Assembly: GCF_000151315.2 (NCBI RefSeq)
Contig: NW_011887301.1
Span: 1,266,661-1,330,660 of the forward strand
Reading direction: 5' to 3'
DNA: 64,000 nt
Source: Capsaspora owczarzaki ATCC 30864
Lineage: Eukaryota; Opisthokonta; Filasterea
In this document: piece after piece, positions 42,319 through 56,318 of the stretch
Layout of the letters: every line of letters begins with the position of its first letter
Numbering within the stretch: position 1 is the stretch's first letter
The notes under the pieces: generated by a model
Databases searched by the model: none
What the model saw: the letters and a program-made list of their open reading frames with translations, nothing else
Told to the model about the DNA's origin: nothing
Position numbers and translations under genes: made by a program

Positions 42319-44391
42319 ATGACCACTGCCGTCCTCCCTCCCATGTCGGAAATCACGCCGTTGCTCAAAGACGTCGTCGACAACGCTGATTCAAGGTGAG
42401 CGCAGCGCAATTTGTTTCACTTTTGCTGATTTTTTGTTACTTTCTTGCAAGCAACTAAAATGTTTCGTTTTGGATTTTTGTTTTTTCTGAAACAATTTTT
42501 TGTTGGACTTCGTTTGCTTGCTGCAGCCAAGTCACTGTGGCGGACGTCCTCCGTGCTGTGGAGAACAAGATGTCTCTCGCCGAGGGTACCTTCAAGGAAG
42601 ATCCCGAGATGAACGAGCAGCTGTGCGCGTACATTGACTCGTTGCTGGTGAGTGAAGCAAAAAAACACACAGAAGAAAAAAAAAGTGTTTCGCGCCATTT
42701 TTTCGCCTTTTGTTTTGTGTTTTTTTTTTTTTTTTTTTTTTTTGGTTTTTGGCTCACCTCTCCTTTGTCATGTTCACTAGGGCGCACATACCAACCCGGA
42801 CTCGCCCATCGACAAGACCATCCATGGCATGGACTCGCCCGCTTCGGACGGCGAGAACGACGACCAGGCGGCCAACAAGACGGCCGACACACCCGACTCT
42901 GGCTGCTCGACTCCCATGCAAATGGACCCTGCTGCGGAAAAGCCAGCTGCGACCAAGGCATCGGCCAAGAAGGCAGCCGGCAACAAGACTCCGAGCAAGG
43001 GACAGGCGGACGCACCCACGACCACCGAGTGGGACGAGGCGGAGGAGGCCACGACGGTCGAGCACCTGAAAAAGTGCGTCAAGCTGACTGGCTCGCGCAA
43101 GACGTTTGCCAAGGAGCTGGCTGGCAAGACCCCCGAGGAGCAGTGCGAGGTGCTGGCCAACGCGCTGACGGAAATGGGCGTTGCCAGCCCCATCACGCTT
43201 GCGCGCTGCACGGAATTCAAGACTGCCCAAGCGGCTGCCAAGGCAGCGTCTGCTGCGACGTCCAGTGCTGATGAGAGCGAGTCGGCCGAGACGATCGCCG
43301 CCGCTGCTGCTGCCAAGCGTGCTGCCGCCCAGATTGCCAGCATTGACGTGGATGCCAGCAACATTCTGACCGAGGCCTCTGGCGGTCGTGCGCGTCGTGC
43401 AACTGCGCAGCGCACACTCGAGCTCATGCGCAAGGTGTCGGAGAGCGCCCAAGCCAAGATCGAAGGCAGCGATGACGAGGAAGACGGCAACGCGGGCGAG
43501 GACGACGACGACGATGCCAACGAAGAGGACGACGATGACGATGATGCTGCTGAAGAAGAGGAGGACGAAGACGACGACGAGGAGGAGGACGAGGACGACG
43601 TTGCTGACGAAGAGGAGGAGGAGGACGACGAGCCGACTCGCAAAAAGTCCAAGTCGGCCAAGAAGCAGCCTTCCTCGTCGCCTGCCAAGAAGCCTGCCGC
43701 CGCTACGAGCAAGTCTCCCAGCAGCAGCGCCAAGAAGAGCCCTGCTGCCAAGTCTCCTGCCGGTGCTCCCAAGGCTGCCTCGCCCGCTTCGAAGGCTACG
43801 ACTGCCGCCAGCAAGGCCAAGTCCCCAGCGAAGGCGCCTGCGACTGCTGCTGCGAAGGCCAAGAAGGCGACCACCGACGACATGGAGGTGGACGATGACG
43901 ATTCCGCTGCGAGCTCCAAGAACAAGAAACAGGCAACCTCTGACGAAGAGGGCGACACTGCTGAAGCGGACAACGCTGGCGAGGACGAGGAAGCCGACGA
44001 GGAAGCGCCCAAGAAGAAGGCTGCTGCTCCAAAGAAGGTGGCTCCGGCTACGAAGAAGCCTGCCGCCAGCCCCGCCGCAACTACCACCGCCAAGCCTGCC
44101 ATCGGAGGAGGAGGCATCAAGCCGCAGATTGGCACTCCGCGCAAGGGACTTGGAGCTGGTCGTCCACTTGGCGCACGCGCAGGCTTCACGCCTCCGTCGC
44201 GCGTGGCGCCTGCAGCAACTCCCACAAACACCCCGACCAAGGGCGTGAAGCGTGCCGCAAAGTCTGGGGACAACCAAGAGGACGATGAGGAGGAAGGCTC
44301 TCCTTCCAAAAAGTCGCGTTGCTCGGACGACGACGAGGACGACGAGGGCAACGAGCGCCGTCGCCGTGATGCAGAGTACGAAGATTGCTAG
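42319..44391 (+). CDS. Acidic nuclear protein with N-terminal DEK-C-like domain
   Basis: Three exons (42319-42395, 42527-42647, 42781-44391; phases 2 and 0) give 602 residues. Residues about 9-65 (SEITPLLKDVVDNADSSQVT, VADVLRAVENKM, NEQLCAYIDSLL) fit the three-helix DEK C-terminal fold, which binds DNA or protein in chromatin factors. A second small helical segment lies around 140-190 (TVEHLKKCVKLTGSRKTFAK; EEQCEVLANALTEMG). Then come a poly-Asp/Glu region (about 290-345), a Lys/Ala/Ser/Pro-rich histone-H1-like region (SPAKKPAAATSKSP), a Gly/Arg patch near 500 and an acidic tail. Charge blocks suggest a histone- or nucleic-acid-binding nuclear protein. Large antisense frames over this gene are codon-bias shadows. 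Confidence 0.85.
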
Positions 44392-44574: not shown

Positions 44575-46257
44575 CTACAAAAGAACAGTCAGAGATTTGT
44601 TGACTTTGCGCGCCTCATCGATTGCTTGAGCACCCACGTCGCCAACGGGATTGGAGATTAGTCTGTCCAGTTGGTTCAAGCGGTGATAAGTCGGGAAGAC
44701 ATTGGCTCGAGCTCTCGCCATCAAAGAGCGACGTACACAAGGCGAGTCAGCGTCTTGGTCACTTTGATTGCCTCAGCAAGCGCGAGTGCACCGGCAACAC
44801 CGATAAAATTCTCTTCCAAACTGGCGATCGATCGATGAGCTGTGCAAAAACCGAATCGTGTGTGCGAGCGTTTTAAGTCGACCTACATTAGCCCGGTGAG
44901 TGTCTTGCTCGCTTGAAGGGCTCGACCAAGTGCGTGTGCGCCAGCATCGCCAATCTTATTCTGGCGCAGGCTGTTCGGAAAATCAGTCAGCAACCGACTT
45001 CATCCCTCGCACGCACTCATAGGTGCAAGATGACTGACGAGAGAACAATCAGCTTTGGGTTTGCTTCGCCAATCGCCTGCGCGCCTGCGTCGCCAATCTG
45101 ATTCGAACCCAGACTGCTTTGTCCCATTCCGCTGGTGAGCGGCGCTCTCGAAAGATTCTCCGCAACGCGACTCGACTGCCCACCAATGACCCATCTTTTC
45201 ATCCGACTTACCCAAGCACAGCCAGCGCCTTGTTCACTTTGAGTGCTTCGCCGATGGCGCGCGCTCCATCGTCGCCAATCTGATTCCCACTCAGGCTGCT
45301 CGGGTCCCTCGCCCAGTGAGCACGCACAGTTGCTCGCAGCTAGCTACCCCCAATTCGGTCGTACGCAGCTGTAACTTACTGTATGTCAGTTAACGCCTTG
45401 TTCACGCTGAGTGCCTCGGCAAGGGCTTGCGCTCCAGCATTGCCAATCTGATTTTGGTGCAGGCTGTCCGTCCCCACGCACACAGCATCAGTGAGCACGC
45501 TTCCCACCCGGTGGTGAAGCACCAGCAGTCACTCTAGCATACTTGAGGAACGTCAAGGAGTTGCTCACTTTGAGTGCATTTGCAATCGCCAAGGCGCCAT
45601 CGTTGTCAATCTGATTCTCGTGCAGGCTAACCAGTCAGCAATATTGTTAGTGCCCATAGCTGCGCCAGCCAGTCACTCAAAGACACCTGGAACTGTGAGG
45701 TGGCTCACTAGAGACGAGCCAGCGTGGAAATGGCTTGACTGAGTGCTTGTGCACCAGCGGACCCAATCTGGTTGTCACCCAGACTAGCCCCGACCACCAC
45801 CACCCCCACCTCGGTGAGCAATCTCAATATCAGCATACTACACCAATTGCTACAGGACTTCATTGAAATGGGCTCACTTGAGCGTCGTCAGCTTCTTGTT
45901 GACACTGAGCGCTTGAGCAATCGCCAGTGCTCCAACATCGCCAATCTGATTGTGGTACAAACTGACCTCGCTCTTCAGTGAGCAATCTTGATGTCTGCTG
46001 CAGCATCAACTACCCCTCAATTCGCCTCTCAAACGTACCTGAGCTCCTTCAGCGTCTGGTTCACTTGGAGTGCTTCGGCAATCGCTTGAACTTCATCGGC
46101 GTCAATCTGCCTCCCACCCAGACTGACAGTCCACTTTTTTCATCAGCGCCCTGCAGGATGTACACTTGACATGAATCTGTGTGCTTCCAACGCACTAGAG
46201 TGTTCCATTCGTCGCGCTCTTGACTTTTCCATCCAGGTTGCTCTGTCGCCAAGCCAT
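44575..46257 (-). CDS. Leucine-rich-repeat (RNI-type) protein, one exon per repeat
   Basis: Eleven exons on the minus strand: 46257-46196, 46122-46039, 45961-45878, 45783-45709, 45626-45543, 45463-45380, 45295-45212, 45113-45039, 44970-44887, 44820-44737 and 44662-44575. They total 888 nt, 295 residues, ending in TAG. Exons 2-10 are 84 nt (28 aa) or 75 nt (25 aa), each a single LRR with the consensus LxxNQIGDxGAxAIAEAL then KVNKxLTxL, as in ribonuclease-inhibitor/NLR-type proteins. Every intron is phase 2 and 66-98 nt long, so exons can be added or lost without breaking the frame. Exon 1 (MAWRQSNLDGKVKSATNGTL) has no signal peptide. Such horseshoes bind proteins; the partner is unknown. Protein-level support is strong because all ten repeats align. 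The start exon is the least certain. Confidence 0.85.
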
Positions 46258-50200: not shown

Positions 50201-50664
50201 AACACGATTTTGCCATGCACAGGGAGACATCAAAGAAGTTCACCGATTCAGCCGCGTGAGCAAGATTTCACAGCCCAGGTCCAAGCCCAGCAGGGCCAAG
50301 AAGGACTCCAAGATGGATTACCAAATGGACAAAATGAAGAAGGGCGGCGGCTTGGGAAGCCTCAGTTTCGGCGGGAAGAGAAAAGGCATTGTTCCCGTCA
50401 AGGTGGATATGGTACGTCTTGAAACAAGACAAAAAAAAACTGTGCTGTCTGATGCGGGGTGTGGTCAAGTCTGGAACCTAACGTTGGCGAACTTGTTCTC
50501 ATTTTTTGTTTGGGATTTGGCTGTGGCTGCAGGTCAAGAGCGGCACCGAGTTCAAGTTTGAAAAGCTCCTGGTGGTCCATCAACCGATTCGACTCGCAGT
50601 AGAGTATCTCAAGCAGTCCAAGAAGGGCCGGCGCGAGCTCGACGCCAAATGCGTGATTTCCTAA
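47271..50664 (+). CDS. Large conserved beta-rich protein, function unknown
   Basis: Five exons (47271-47697, 48047-48137, 48248-50084, 50223-50411, 50533-50664) give 891 residues. Joining exon 1 to 2 requires a GC-AG intron (ATGCAG|GCAAGC). The N-terminus (MSKMMMKKKAGNLRAQEELF) is Gln/Met-rich. From residue about 170 it is a chain of predicted beta-sandwich units: FKIMVFAEDYTATKILSQSV, ELRFTVVAQSPLELEAAIAV, LLEYGVEDKFELRVTAEKQL, YKFLTPTYEIELDVKKHADV, then YLRITLPADGEVWSTTVGDK ahead of AVKPA. The LP-x-EVW...V..KPVKPA-like motif is familiar from uncharacterised bacterial and eukaryotic proteins. The C-terminus is Lys/Met-rich, then basic. No signal peptide or clear membrane helix. Function not inferred. 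Confidence 0.8.
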
Positions 50665-51027
50665 GACTTTTGAGGTTGTGTTTGCCATGCTGTCGTGTTG
50701 TTTTCATTTTGATTGTTTTAGCGTTTTTGCTGCTTGTTGCTTGTCAGTGTTGTGCCTCATGTGTGTATGCGTGTATGTGTGCGTTTTGACTTTTGCAATG
50801 TAAATCCCGCTCAGATTCAGTCGTCCTTGAGATCAGCGATGTTGCAATGAGCCAATTCTCTTCCCTCCTTCCCTCTTCTCCAAAAGCAGCTGCAAGGTCA
50901 CAGATAATCGTAATAGTGTAATAGTAACTGCCCTGCTACAAAAGAGATGCTCTTCTGTCTCAGTTTGTCATAAAAAGCTCGCCTTTTGTTGGTTTTAGTT
51001 ACATTTCAATCCTCCACTTCGAAGCTC
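50665..51027. other. Intergenic
   Basis: 363 nt of T-rich and GTGTGT sequence between two plus-strand genes. Nothing recognised. Confidence 0.5.
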
Positions 51028-51996
51028 ATGAACGCAACAACCACGAAATCAGGATCATCAGAACAAACTCAATGCAGTACAAATGAAGATGTGCAACATC
51101 ACAGCTCACTCAACAATGAGCAACCTTTATCTTGTTCGCACACGCTCGCCACTGTCCGCAAGGAGGAATGGCTTCCAGTTCTCCACTCGCTTTTGCAGCG
51201 TCGCTTGAACGCTGTTTCGCAACCCACACCGAAGGATGTCGAAGCGCTACGGCAACTCGAGCCGCAACCGGCATCGGCGAGAACAGCAGCGACAGATGCT
51301 GCATCGCCTGCCGCACCACTGGTTGCATCCGAACAGCGACCATTGCTGGCGCCAGCATTGCAGCCTATCATCGATGGACAAACCCAGCATCGAGATTTTG
51401 CGAACACAAGTACACAGCAATCTGGAATTTCCACTACTATTCCTCGAGTGGGTATGCAAGAGCTTGCTAAAGCCACTGACAACTTTGCCGAATCACGGCG
51501 CATCGGTCGTGGTGGCTTTGGCAACGTTTATGCTGGCGTCTTGGCGGGTGCAAGCGTCGCTGTTAAGCGTTTGGCTGTGGATTCAAGGCAAGACATCGCT
51601 CAATTTGAGGCCGAGCTCGAATCCCTCTCTCGTTTTCGCCATTGCAACATTGTGACTATCATGTGCTATGCTCAAGAAGGCAACGAATGCTGCTTGGTGT
51701 ACGAGCTGATGGCAAATGGTTCAGTCCGTGATCGTCTGGATTGCAGGAGCGGCACGCCCGCTCTGAGTTGGCCACAAAGCCAGAGAATCGCAACCGAGAT
51801 CGCAAGCGCTATGAACTTTGTTCAGACTGCCATTCCACGGCAGCCGCTGTTCCACCTGGATCTCAAGACTGACAGTGTTTTGCTGGATGCTGAGTTTCAC
51901 GCCAAGGTCGCCGATTTTGGACTGACGCGCTCAGCACCAGCACCAGCGCCAGCAGCCCAAGGACAGCCAGCCGCGTCCACCTTGCCATTCAGATAG
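51028..51996 (+). CDS. Truncated Pelle/IRAK-type protein kinase, possibly a pseudokinase or gene remnant
   Basis: 322 residues starting MNATTTKSGSSEQ. About 140 low-complexity residues precede a kinase start of the plant-RLK/Pelle/IRAK style: MQELAKATDNFAESRRIGRG then GFGNVYAG (Gly loop about 160), VAVKRL (catalytic Lys), FEAELESLSRFRHCNIVTIM (helix C Glu) and CLVYELMANGSVRDRL. The catalytic loop reads FHLDLKTDSVLLD instead of H-R-D-x-K-x-x-N: Arg is Leu and the metal-binding Asn is Ser. DFG is kept (ADFGLT, about 295), but the protein stops 27 residues later after a Pro/Ala-rich stretch, with no activation segment end, APE or lower C-lobe. The following 320 nt do not encode the missing part. 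Either a decayed gene or a scaffold-only kinase fold. Confidence 0.7.
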   Translation: MNATTTKSGSSEQTQCSTNEDVQHHSSLNNEQPLSCSHTLATVRKEEWLPVLHSLLQRRLNAVSQPTPKDVEALRQLEPQPASARTAATDAASPAAPLVASEQRPLLAPALQPIIDGQTQHRDFANTSTQQSGISTTIPRVGMQELAKATDNFAESRRIGRGGFGNVYAGVLAGASVAVKRLAVDSRQDIAQFEAELESLSRFRHCNIVTIMCYAQEGNECCLVYELMANGSVRDRLDCRSGTPALSWPQSQRIATEIASAMNFVQTAIPRQPLFHLDLKTDSVLLDAEFHAKVADFGLTRSAPAPAPAAQGQPAASTLPFR

Positions 51997-52319: not shown

Positions 52320-54800
52320 CTATGTTTGGTCCGGAAAGGTAAGTTTGCGAGAAGGATCGACGACGTTGTTCAGAGTATCGAGATCCCAAAGCGCCACTTG
52401 CATCCGCGGGGGAATATCGATGACCTCGAGCTCCTCCTCATCGACGACTTCCTCCTTCTTCTTCTTGACTTCCTTCTTCTTGACCTCCTTCTTCTTCTTG
52501 TTCTTTGCGCCGGACATTGTGACCCGACCTTCGAGCAGCTTGCTATTCATGGAAGGCTTGAGGTAGTTTGGTGGCCTGGACAACACCGAGATGAGAAGTT
52601 GGCGCGGTCGGAGGTTCTTCTCAAGATGAGCAAAGTGGCGACTCAGACGCTCAATGTCCTCATTCACAATGGTTGGGCCGGTGAACGACATCTTGTTTCG
52701 ATTGAAAAGCTTGCAGGCAACACCGATCCAGACAGTGTTTTGCACTGTCGGGCTTGCGGCCGTGCAAACAGCAATCATTCCATCAGACGACTGGGACGCT
52801 TTGCCAATCCACTCGACAACCGCAATAGGCCCAGTCGGAATTGTCGTCCGGAGTTCCACGAGGCGTGCCACCAACTGATCCGGCAATGCAGCTGCGTCGA
52901 TGCCATGGCGCTTCGCGCTGGTCGCGTGTGCAACGGAGACGGTGATCGAGCCCGCACGCTTGCTCAGCGTCCGCTCGTCAAAGCCAATGCCTTGATGAGG
53001 CGCAGATGTTTGGAGAATATGCTGCACGACATCCGAGTCGAGCACTGCTTGAGGAAGCACGCCCTTCGATTGGGCCAGCAGCCAGCTGCTACTGGGGTCG
53101 CCAATTGTGGCTCGGTAAAGTGCAGCAAAGATGGACCACAACGCCAGCACCTCGAGTGTCTCCGACGTAACGACGGTGCCTGCGAGTTCGATGATCAAGG
53201 TCGCGAGAGCCAGTTCCTTCCGAGTGCCAACAATTTGCGGCAGGATGACTTGAACTTGAGGTCCACGAGAGGAATCCACGGGCTTGGTGTAACAGAAGAG
53301 TCTGTCCAACAGGAGTAGAACTTGAACTTGAACAGGGTCAGGTTTTCCTGGAACGCGGACTTCGATTGTTGACTTGGGATCGAACACCTCACCCGCGAGC
53401 GCCCGACGGACAATGTTGGCGCTCGCCAGATACAGTGGATCATGCGGGCGGCTGATCACAGCGGTCAGCTCGAGCGAGTTCATGAGGAAGACACTGGCGA
53501 TGGACGCTTGAGTGGTACCGAGGGCGAAGTACGCCCGGATCTCGTCTGGTGTCATGGCGCCAAAGTCGATGCCGCTGCCCCAGGGCACTTGCAGCGCATA
53601 CGAAACCAGACGTGGCACACCAGCGGTGAGAGTGTGAACGCATTCGGTGAAGGCAAGGCGTTGAGCATGCTTGTCGCGCAGACCGAGGGTATCAATCAGC
53701 TCTGGGGAGCTGACATCAGGGCGGTGTCGGTTCAGAATCTCTTCAATGTGCTCGCCGCCAAGTGGTGGCAGGATGATCGTTTGCAATTCTGACGGCGATG
53801 TCATGGGAATGTGAGGGTCAGCGGTGCTCGAGCCCACAGGCGCATCGCTTGGAGCTCTGAGAAGCCCGTGCTGGATGAGACTAAATGCGACCGACTTGCC
53901 CGAGCACACAATGTACACATTGTCGAGGTTGAGTAGCGGTGCAAGGAGACGCGACCAAAACGTGTAGTGACGACGCAAGGCTCCAGTGTTCGGCGCGAAC
54001 ACGTTCGGCTGGCTGGAACAGCGGTACTCCGAACCAGGGAACCACGGATCGAAGCCAGAATTCTCGATGGCGCCCATCTCGTCAAAGTGGAGGAGCAGAG
54101 GGACACCAGCGTGCTTCTGAAGACCCGAAATCACGCGGCCAAGGGGTCCTCGCGGCACTGCGAGCGGTGGCAGGCCGAGCGTGGAGCAGGTGTTCAAAAA
54201 TATCGCTTCCAGAACATCATCAGCCATATCACTCATGCGGTTGAAGTGGGTCATGTCGATGAGGATGTAGCGCGCGTTGAGGACGGACTCGTACAGCGGC
54301 CTTTTGATTGCCGGGGCCGAATCGAGGATTTCCTTAGCGTGGGGATTGCGCTCATTGCCAATGTGCTCCACAAAGCTTGTCTTGCCCGAGCCGAACATTT
54401 GAGGTAGAGTGAACAACATGCCCTTAGGCCGCTTGGATTTGTCGGCCAGATTCTCGACAGCTTCTTTTAAGCTATCGTGCCGGTTGACAAAGGGCAGTTT
54501 CAGCTCAAACAGACCCCGCCTACCGTTTGGTGCTGGTCAACAAATCAAGTACACACACAAAAGAAGTCGGTGAGAGTGATGGTCGGTCAATGCTGCGTTC
54601 TCGCACAGCAACAAGAGCAAAGGAAGCGTACCATCCGGACGTTGAACGATCGTCGTCGCAGCCGCCTTGGTCGACAGGCACTTGGCAGTCGGATCAGCAG
54701 CACGGAATGCCGCAGCAGCCGGGCTACGCCTCGCAGCACTAAAGAGCGCCGCTTTGATTGGAGCGAGCGGAAGGCGAAAGAATCGCGCGGTTCTCAGCAT
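52320..54800 (-). CDS. Crinkler/RHS-like P-loop NTPase
   Basis: Two exons (54800-54632, 54532-52320; phase 1) give 793 residues. Exon 1 (MLRTARFFRLPLAPIKAALF, then SAARRSP) has the basic, Ser/Ala-rich look of a mitochondrial presequence. Exon 2 opens LFELKLPFVNRHDSLKEAV, resembling the PFV-x-R header before the NTPase domain of Crinkler and retrotransposon-hot-spot (RHS) proteins. Walker A is QMFGSGKTS (about 101-109, lacking the usual first Gly); Walker B is VPLLLHFDEMG (about 200-209). VYIVCSGKSVAFSL and HTLTAGVPRLVSYAL fit the sensor region of the same class. The C-terminal 350 residues are a different alpha/beta unit (in this class often a nuclease-fold domain, not provable here). A Lys-rich tract (KNKKKKEVKKKEVKKKKEE) follows and an Asp-rich end. 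A start at 54875 is possible. Confidence 0.72.
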
Positions 54801-55646
54801 CGTGTCCAAAGAAGCGAGGACGGACTGAACCTGCCAAACCGATCGAGTGCTTTGGGCATCGTCAACGGCGGGCATCGATGGTGAGTTAGTTTGTTTCTTG
54901 TATCAAGCTTCATCACGGCCAATTGAAGACACCAATGTTGCATTGATGGTGTTGTCGACTTCTTTTTGTTGTTTTTTTTTTTTTGTTTTTTTTTTTCTTT
55001 TTTTTTTTTCCTTTTTTTTTGGTTGGCCGCCGTTCGAACAAGCTTCACTCTTTTTGAGCTCTCAGGGCGTGTTCTGGGTTTTGCTGTTTTATGACAATTC
55101 ACTCAATGACTTCTCATAGATAACCAAGGTGGTGCCGGCGAGGGGGGAAGGGGTCAAGGGTCAAGGGTCAATGCCGAACACGCTGAATGCCCACTTGTTA
55201 CACCCCGCCTGTCATTTAACGTGTCGCCTTATGTTTTTCTAGGGATTTCAATCCTACTCGCCGCCACTTTCAGGATGCATTTAGTTATATTCGTAGGTTG
55301 GACGAAACGAGAGAAAGGAGCATGAAGTCGAGATGCCATCTCAGGGGGCTCGGTTGAAAATGGGCGGCGGGGTTGAGGATTGCCGATCTGAGCGTGTGTC
55401 AGCCTCCCAGTCCCGCCACTCTAATTTCGTCCAACCTACAATATTATATATATTCTTGGGCAAAAAATGGGCGGACCAGTCCCGTTTGGTCATAGGGTTG
55501 ACAGGGCGACATTTGACTTGACGCGACTTTTGACCTCCAAGCGCGAGACTCATCGTCACAACCACCGCAAAAGGCTCAATACTCAAAACACAGATACTTG
55601 TCGCATATAATTAGGGCTTGAAGCTCGGTTTCTGACGCGCTTGGAG
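54801..55646. other. Intergenic, with T-rich tract and inverted repeat
   Basis: About 850 nt. A long T-rich run lies at 54961-55020, GGGTCAA repeats at 55149-55168 and an inverted repeat at 55293-55439. No gene recognised. Confidence 0.55.
55293..55439. repeat. 15-bp perfect inverted repeat, loop about 117 nt
   Basis: GTAGGTTGGACGAAA at 55293-55307 is the exact reverse complement of 55425-55439. Weak matching continues on both sides (TATATT and AGAG). It could be ends of a small non-autonomous element or a long hairpin. No target-site duplication was identified. Confidence 0.6.
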
Positions 55647-56318
55647 ATGGTGGTGCATCGTCAAAGGTTGGCGTTTTCATGTTCATCGCCATCACGTCTT
55701 CCCTACTGCTCACTGCAGCGCCAAACCCAGTCGGACGTCATTCTACTACATCAGCCAACATGTCTCTGGCAAGGAGGCGGCGGAGTTCATGTCTACAGGC
55801 TGCACTATCCTCCCGCCATTTTTTTTCTGGACAAGGTTGCACTGCTTCCACCGCAGGCACTTCCTTCGGCCTCCGAGTTTCTTGATTCGGATGGGCACAT
55901 GTACATGTCATGCGAGGACCGTGTCAAGGCGGCTGGACAACGCGCTATGATGCAGCTAGACAACGACTTTGAATCCGCACACTCCACACAAAGTTCGGAC
56001 AGCTCGAACTTGGAAAGCTCGAGGTGCTGTGTAGCAACACAACTGCTACAGACCCCGCCCCACTCCATTCTCTCTGGGCTACAAAAGAGAAGAAAGCTGG
56101 CAATGTCGGAAGGCTCGAAACGCCGTTCGAGCAGCGATCGCGAATGCATGCTATGTTACAACGCTCCGACGACAGCCAAGTTGATGCCTTGCTGTCACGC
56201 ATGTGTTTGCGTGGCGTGTGCTCAAGAAATGATTCGACGTCAGGACAAGTGCATGGTTTGTCGTGTCATCCCGACCGCGTTCGTCCCGGGTTTTTTCAAC
56301 CAGACGTTTGTTCCGTGA
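55647..56318 (+). CDS. RING-finger protein (C-terminal RING)
   Basis: 223 residues from the ATG at 55647. The C-terminal 60 residues form a compact RING: ECMLCYNAPTTAKLMPCCHA then CVCVACAQEMI and DKCMVCRVIP, i.e. Cys-x2-Cys, Cys-x-His-x-Cys-x2-Cys and Cys-x2-Cys, of the MGRN/IAP/Mdm2-like short type. Such RINGs recruit E2 enzymes for ubiquitin transfer. The middle is Ser-rich (SAHSTQSSDSSNLESS), with a basic patch KRRKL. The N-terminal 60 residues have mixed composition and another frame there also looks coding, so the true start or an upstream exon is uncertain. The protein ends FFNQTFVP. Confidence 0.68.
   Translation: MVVHRQRLAFSCSSPSRLPYCSLQRQTQSDVILLHQPTCLWQGGGGVHVYRLHYPPAIFFLDKVALLPPQALPSASEFLDSDGHMYMSCEDRVKAAGQRAMMQLDNDFESAHSTQSSDSSNLESSRCCVATQLLQTPPHSILSGLQKRRKLAMSEGSKRRSSSDRECMLCYNAPTTAKLMPCCHACVCVACAQEMIRRQDKCMVCRVIPTAFVPGFFNQTFVP

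Follow-up and report, generated by a model that had tools for sequence, protein, structure and literature searches.

A gene of uniform phase-2 LRR exons in Capsaspora owczarzaki looks like an ancient member, with LRRs alone, of a very large gene family

The window analyzed here is a 64,000-nucleotide stretch of contig NW_011887301.1 of Capsaspora owczarzaki. On its minus strand, running from 46257 to 44575, lies an LRR gene that we rebuilt from its splice sites; the model has 11 exons and an open spliced frame of 295 amino acids (Table 1). All ten introns are GT-AG and in phase 2, and measure 73, 77, 94, 82, 79, 84, 98, 68, 66, and 74 nt in order. Exons 2 to 10 come in two lengths, 84 nt and, for exons 4 and 8, 75 nt, with one RNI-type LRR per exon, and the codon split by an intron is in every repeat the one directly before the L of L-x-x-N. 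The rebuilt model reproduced the original prediction of eleven exons, nine of them 84 or 75 nt with one LRR each, of introns all in phase 2 and 66–98 nt long, and of a boundary at the same residue of every repeat. The 9-nt losses of exons 4 and 8, which the prediction took to be independent, may be so.

Table 1. Coordinates of the LRR gene within the window
Feature	Position	Strand	Basis
Whole gene, ten phase-2 GT-AG introns of 66–98 nt	44575..46257	-	
Exon 1 (62 nt), with the start codon and the N-terminal cap MAWRQSNLDGKVKSATNGTL; phase 2 at its end	46196..46257	-	
Exon 2 (84 nt), LRR 1	46039..46122	-	gene model
Exon 3 (84 nt), LRR 2	45878..45961	-	gene model + motif match
Exon 4 (75 nt), LRR 3, 9 nt shorter	45709..45783	-	gene model + motif match
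Exon 5 (84 nt), LRR 4	45543..45626	-	gene model + motif match
Exon 6 (84 nt), LRR 5	45380..45463	-	gene model + motif match
Exon 7 (84 nt), LRR 6	45212..45295	-	gene model + motif match
Exon 8 (75 nt), LRR 7, 9 nt shorter	45039..45113	-	gene model + motif match
Exon 9 (84 nt), LRR 8	44887..44970	-	gene model + motif match
Exon 10 (84 nt), LRR 9	44737..44820	-	gene model
Exon 11 (88 nt including TAG), LRR 10 and stop	44575..44662	-	gene model

Retention of any one of the ten introns would bring in an in-frame stop (10/10), which supports the exon joins; the joins themselves are predicted from homology and splice consensus. Two introns have donors off the consensus (GTGCGT and GTCAGT). Exon 11 consists of an 84-nt LRR unit followed by GTAG, a donor-like sequence whose read-through yields the stop TAG. 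A convergent ORF ends at 44391.

As controls against chance, we searched the window with an exon-start motif and with an exon scanner that looks for an AG, an LRR-like frame, and a GT, and calls an array at three or more exons. At up to three mismatches, the motif matched seven times in the 64 kb, all within the gene (exons 3–9), against 0.01 expected. The scanner chained 10 exons at the gene, at most three elsewhere in the window, one in the reversed window, and at most two in five triplet shuffles of the window. A three-exon chain at 50429, upstream of a kinase ORF, was rejected by eye as low-scoring junk, and a phage origin of the gene was rejected, as no match was found.

The spliced 295-residue protein matched Pfam LRR_6 with an E value of 2.6e-42 (139.9 bits against a curated cut-off of 23.4); a family search of the organism's own genome for LRR_6 returned 0 matches, as did 14 controls, and is thus uninformative. 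Among the solved chains in the PDB that the protein matched were ribonuclease inhibitors, several NLRPs, and 5irl_A, which is labelled uncharacterized and which we take to be rabbit NOD2. Pfam detected no NACHT/NB-ARC, TIR, or other receptor domain in this protein, and no kinase.

We searched the genome (27.46 Mb, 29 contigs) with the exon-start motif at up to two mismatches and found 1,217 places, 582 forward and 635 reverse, with 0 in the control. The same genome has six T-box matches, corresponding by position to about four genes, and six integrin-beta matches spread over four regions; both T-box and beta-integrin are recorded for Capsaspora owczarzaki (PMC6040629, in part). Among the exact matches listed, which lie on contigs C1–C5, many were clustered about 160 nt, or a multiple of this, apart. 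Thirty loci were then sampled (20 regions of 8–10 kb and ten of 3.2 kb), picked by motif matches rather than at random, and the scanner found arrays in 29 of the 30, the exception being L039. Adding the window gene brings the total to 32 arrays with 294 candidate exons, of which 259 measure exactly 84 nt and 20 measure 75 nt; judged by eye, a few of those at the ends of arrays are false, such as the first ones in L041 and L051. The motif within two mismatches fits 197 of the 294 candidates, and scaling from the 1,217 places puts the family at about 1,800 exons, a rough figure obtained from loci chosen by exact matches. Exon boundaries in the sampled paralogues were found to be the same; unrelated ones would have refuted the original prediction. 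In 9 of the 32 arrays the first exon has the pattern M-x-x-RQRELYDKVKNAS-x-x-L, or varies it, and ends in phase 2; exon 1 of the window gene resembles this family exon by eye (8/20 residues when compared with L055).

Within this family, the closest partner of each of the ten scanned exons of the window gene belongs to a different gene, and identity is no higher than 0.69–0.82. Introns 2–10 reached a best identity of 0.72 to other introns, where the top of 4,000 shuffled pairs was 0.70. When a class A intron profile was run on the ten window introns, five scored 6.0–10.6 bits, one scored 1.7, and four had no score; among controls, 5 bits was reached by a single one of 400 random GT..AG pieces and by none of 400 shuffles. 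From the family-like first exon, the near-shuffled identity of introns 2–10, and the five of ten introns that score above the profile controls, we regard the gene as an old member in which recent change is not demonstrable. Judged by its sequence, the gene looks real, and it would count among the older genes, with LRRs alone, of a very large LRR family.

We observed joint copying of exon and intron in four dimer arrays (L034, L043, L044, and L048), in which intron length switches back and forth, mostly between about 65 and about 83 nt, with the exon types in step. Identity at lag 2 in these arrays was 0.74–0.78 for exons and 0.67–0.71 for introns, compared with 0.59–0.63 and 0.55–0.56 at lag 1; the short first piece of L048 gave 0.70/0.66 versus 0.59/0.55 (exon/intron), and in arrays other than these four the lags differed little. 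The three dimer arrays that are seen in full close with a 118–132-nt intron and a 75-nt last exon. Inside L042, five intron pairs recur at 0.89–1.00 identity, in an order that is not kept. Exon and intron thus go together in copying in the dimer arrays and L042, which supports the exchangeable one-repeat exons of the original prediction. Separate, introner-like insertions into an intronless LRR gene, each hitting its repeat at an equivalent position, could also produce the uniform insertion site of the sampled exons; however, intron type alternates and is copied with exon type in the dimer arrays, and class A introns have a common profile, so we consider this origin very improbable.

Repeat number also differs between some close paralogues. 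The scanner counted 10 exons in L055 and 6 in L056, which are 82% identical across 1,650 aligned columns, and L038 and L051 have most units in common with one extra unit in L051, whose fetched stretch is cut at its 3' end. One exon of L060 is 12 nt shorter, in frame, while the same exon is whole in L031 (by eye). No change in exon number was seen among L057, L058, and L059 or between L053 and L054. The latter two are inverted copies, 97.8% identical, and lie close to the two ends of the 2,526-kb contig C3 (10 kb and 2,510 kb), as expected from subtelomeric duplication. The anticipated gain and loss of repeats is supported in the family by the in-frame number change between some close paralogues, and was not seen in recent form at the window gene, where the nine introns compared show no recent duplication.

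L044 and L048 form a mosaic join, with a near-identical 3' part and a diverged 5' part. Their last five aligned units are 0.94–0.98 identical in exons and 0.88–1.00 in introns, compared with 0.69–0.82 and 0.67–0.92 in the seven aligned units before them. Identity (exon/intron) steps from 0.81/0.67 to 0.94/0.92, and the kinase ORF is identical over its first 125 residues, beyond which the L048 stretch does not extend; an intron that precedes the step is already at 0.92, which counts against a clean mosaic. Equal exons might be nothing but inherited structure, a relic of ancient LRR-domain duplications with no present-day exchange, as the near-background identity of the nine window introns and the constant exon number in L057/L058/L059 and L053/L054 would suggest. 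Such an account is unlikely, given that other paralogues vary in repeat number and that near-identical introns occur both within and between genes; for the window gene itself it may still hold.

The 1,217 motif places, the uniform exons, the joint copying of exon and intron, the number changes, and the L044/L048 mosaic lead us to read the window gene as one of the old members, composed of LRRs only, of a family that is large and dispersed and whose copying unit is one 84-nt phase-2 exon plus intron; we give this reading a probability of roughly 0.75. Units in this family would change by unequal crossing-over or ectopic exchange within arrays.

We assigned kinases and other domains from the ORFs downstream of the arrays. 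A TKL-like kinase lies downstream at 9 of the 30 loci, recognized by Pfam at L034, L035, L044, and in two genes of L050, and by tblastn also at L048, L052, L057, L058, and L059. The match of L057 (near 2,640) falls in two frames, and L058 and L059 gave single matches. At L050:3230-6532, a 1,101-residue ORF directly after the LRR array contains three kinase stretches. The kinase-type member at L034 adds a RING, and the best matches of its kinase are FERONIA, SymRK, IRAK4, and BAK1. Among the ten catalytic loops with a clear reading, HLD or HFD is found in nine and HRD in one; three of these kinases are near-copies. Non-RD kinases are common in innate immunity.

A 190-residue domain follows at another 10 of the 30 loci (L032, L033, L036, L040, L041, L042, L046, L047, L055, and L056), with pieces of it at L038, L045, and L049. 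This domain (QINPLAF..LPALPAEIAERIMDEAHYWQGVQ; L042:2747-3322) has 118 places in the genome at 1e-5, about 100 genes by position. Ten members searched against Pfam gave only three single-member matches (best E 0.03), and the domain profile matched nothing in the PDB up to E 1. Neither kinase nor 190-residue domain is present in the stretches fetched for L031, L037, L039, L043, L051, L053, L054, and L060; L043 has a RING match, L060 has a weak match to a kinase ORF, and a place of the 190-residue domain follows L051 just outside its stretch. Genome-wide, the L035-type kinase has 83 places at 1e-30; some places of the kinase and of the 190-residue domain are two pieces of one gene. On contigs C1–C4, with the query genes themselves counted, an LRR exon that matches without mismatch is found no more than 5 kb from 14 of the 21 kinase places and from 21 of the 29 domain places, compared with 3.7% of random places; the other 7/21 and 8/29 have no exact-match LRR exon within that distance. 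NACHT was absent from 20 ORFs around paralogue arrays. The suggestion that the window gene is of NLR type fails on the absence of NACHT (Pfam) from its own protein.

The window itself holds a kinase ORF (50974-51996, plus strand) that stops inside the kinase domain and is 75% identical to residues 76–244 of the L034 kinase, and a separate RING ORF (55611-56318, plus strand) that is 78% identical to the L034 RING. The two may be pieces of a kinase-RING member; the scanner found no LRR array beside them. Between them, on the minus strand, a 738-residue ORF (52320-54536) has a P-loop-like GSGKTS by eye and no credible Pfam match (best, STAS at 0.19).

The LRR gene of the window has neither a kinase nor the 190-residue C-terminal domain and stops in its last LRR exon. 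A reading of it as the decaying remnant of a family gene with the kinase or the C-terminal domain would agree with the missing C-terminal domain, with a stop formed inside the donor-like site of the last unit, with the two off-consensus donors, and with the divergence of its exons and introns from the sampled ones. On the other hand, 11/11 exons are open, the splice sites are GT-AG, and the first exon is family-like, which makes decay a doubtful explanation. The gene could act as a short LRR binder, a decoy or an adaptor, or could be a member that lost its C-terminus.

To follow selection along the repeat, we used the predicted concave face. Residues 1 and 2 (L-x-x-N) and 25 (L-T-x-L) have an entropy of 3.7–4.0 bits in 259 exons, and the rest do not exceed 2.7. 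In the RNI-type LRR fold, residues 1, 2, and 25, together with the one encoded by the split codon, point into the concave side of the horseshoe; the concave codons were fixed after the peptides had been viewed, and their facing was taken from this known fold. Across 33 collinear units from five disjoint gene pairs, picked by resemblance rather than at random, dN/dS was 1.98 (bootstrap 1.27–3.07) at the four concave codons and 0.36 (0.25–0.52) at the other 24. In the same five pairs, the concave codons make up 15.7% of the sites but account for 53 of the 110 nonsynonymous differences (binomial 1.6e-15), and among 20,475 four-codon sets the concave set alone reached its nonsynonymous count. The five-pair test leaves out L055/L056, two of the three L057/L058/L059 pairs, the seven diverged L044/L048 units, and one L038/L051 unit of unequal length; a collinear set that keeps the three overlapping L057–L059 pairs gave a ratio of 2.55. 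When pairs were ranked by intron identity, concave dN/intron was 5.0, an intron part biased by the ranking, and dN/dS was 1.56; our conclusions are based on the collinear pairs.

The signal was also apparent when exon pairs were binned by identity. At 90–97%, 85–90%, and 80–85% identity, the ratio at three concave codons was 1.78, 1.44, and 1.20, compared with 0.35, 0.30, and 0.30 at non-concave codons, and at 75–80% identity it was 0.80 versus 0.30; pairs at 97% or above had 3 nonsynonymous and 0 synonymous differences at concave codons. Two gene pairs showed no concave excess: L053/L054 had no nonsynonymous change at any of 60 concave sites, and L044/L048 had a concave dN of 0.070 against a dS of 0.075. 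Pooled over the sampled paralogue pairs, replacement at the concave face was shown to outpace synonymous change. The claim of fast evolution is thereby upheld for the sampled paralogues (1.98 versus 0.36). The idea of a fast-evolving recognition receptor of NLR type thus suits the family only partly and the window gene badly, the latter having no receptor domain and no recent duplication among the nine introns compared. Variants would be kept by selection for varied binding surfaces; full-length members would bind putative ligands, probably inside the cell, and would signal via the attached TKL kinase or act via the 190-residue C-terminal domain.

Skipping any single 84- or 75-nt LRR exon keeps the frame. 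On retention, the donor itself would make a stop in 160 of 240 family introns sampled, which follows from phase 2 combined with GTAAG/GTGAG-like donors, and some in-frame stop would arise in 228 of the 240; retention would therefore in many cases terminate the protein neatly at the end of a repeat. The window gene ends in just this way, after a repeat and at a donor-like site. According to the portion of an RNA-seq study available to us, Capsaspora has 191 cassette exons with a PSI under 95% (39 under 85%), 29 of them stage-regulated, as counted with single-mapping reads; differential skipping is enriched in Tyr and Ser/Thr kinase genes, and of the differentially skipped exons two thirds overlap domains and about 60% keep the frame (PMC3870316). 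A second source, in the part available, describes splicing variants as mostly retained introns, in about 33% of genes (PMC5560861).

Alternative splicing might be the main point of such a structure, with cassette LRR exons skipped to give many isoforms in a Dscam-like manner. The exons, each skippable in frame, and the frame-keeping, kinase-enriched skipping (PMC3870316, in part) fit such a role. However, the cassette exons number only 191 and none is named as an LRR exon in the accessible part of that paper, whose single-mapping reads may miss repeat exons, and the reported variants are mostly retained introns (PMC5560861, in part); we think splicing quite unlikely as the main point. The family could still be a source of the kinase-enriched exon skipping reported in Capsaspora (PMC3870316, in part).

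Building on the reading of an old member in a dispersed, exon-exchanging family, we tentatively propose a wider picture, with the odds somewhat against it. Capsaspora would have roughly 150–200 LRR recognition genes with 1,200–1,800 exchangeable exons, joined either to a new domain or to kinases of the IRAK/RLK kind, in at least one case together with a RING. They would be diversified through exchange of exon units and positive selection acting on the binding surface, with stage-regulated skipping as a further possible source. They would serve immune- or self-recognition, convergent with brown algae and ciliates. The family offers a candidate recognition system, open to testing and with microbes, prey, or kin as its possible targets, in a single-celled organism closely related to animals.

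The window gene is itself an array of equal-length phase-2 LRR exons; number change was seen in its paralogues, not at the window locus. NOD/NLRC genes have 84-bp LRR exons. Animal NLR and ribonuclease-inhibitor genes have RNI-type repeats in common with the window gene, which lacks NACHT. Plant LRR receptor kinases and IRAK resemble the L034 kinase, whereas the Capsaspora LRRs are of RNI type and L034 adds RING. No obvious TLR was found in Capsaspora, according to the part of PMC9621439 available. Our searches of the open-licence literature on Capsaspora LRRs found no description of 84-nt LRR exon arrays, nor did the matches listed for the Capsaspora TKL kinome and for gene-family expansion in innate immunity.

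Equal-exon phase-2 LRR arrays are already known from Tetrahymena and brown algae, and it is the 84-nt Capsaspora version that we found undescribed in the open-licence literature searched, some of it available in part. Brown-algal LRR-ROCO genes, candidate immune receptors, also have one LRR per exon, phase-2 introns, and diversifying selection; they differ from the Capsaspora family in their 72-bp exons, which encode 23-residue LRRs and for which splicing variants are reported, and in a ROC-COR GTPase in place of a kinase (PMC11378527, in part, relaying Zambounis et al., 2012). In Tetrahymena, a 2019 study describes very many tandem 90-bp LRR exons with an extreme bias to phase-2 introns, whose length is about 257 bp where the genes are youngest and about 56 bp in older genes, and an association with a LINE-like element (PMC6564038, in part). 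Uniform tandem LRR exons, phase-2 introns, and repeat-number change among close paralogues are common to both organisms, and unequal crossing-over has been proposed for Tetrahymena; young genes there are subtelomeric, and in Capsaspora one pair sits at both ends of a contig. Unlike the 90-bp Tetrahymena exons, those of Capsaspora are 84 nt, with predicted kinase or 190-residue C-termini and a measured selection on the concave face. The Tetrahymena authors suggested, in the part of the paper available, that such an array may have evolved only once (PMC6564038); Capsaspora would provide a further case, here in a holozoan, and adds a signal of selection, measured on the face predicted to bind, together with attached signalling kinases.
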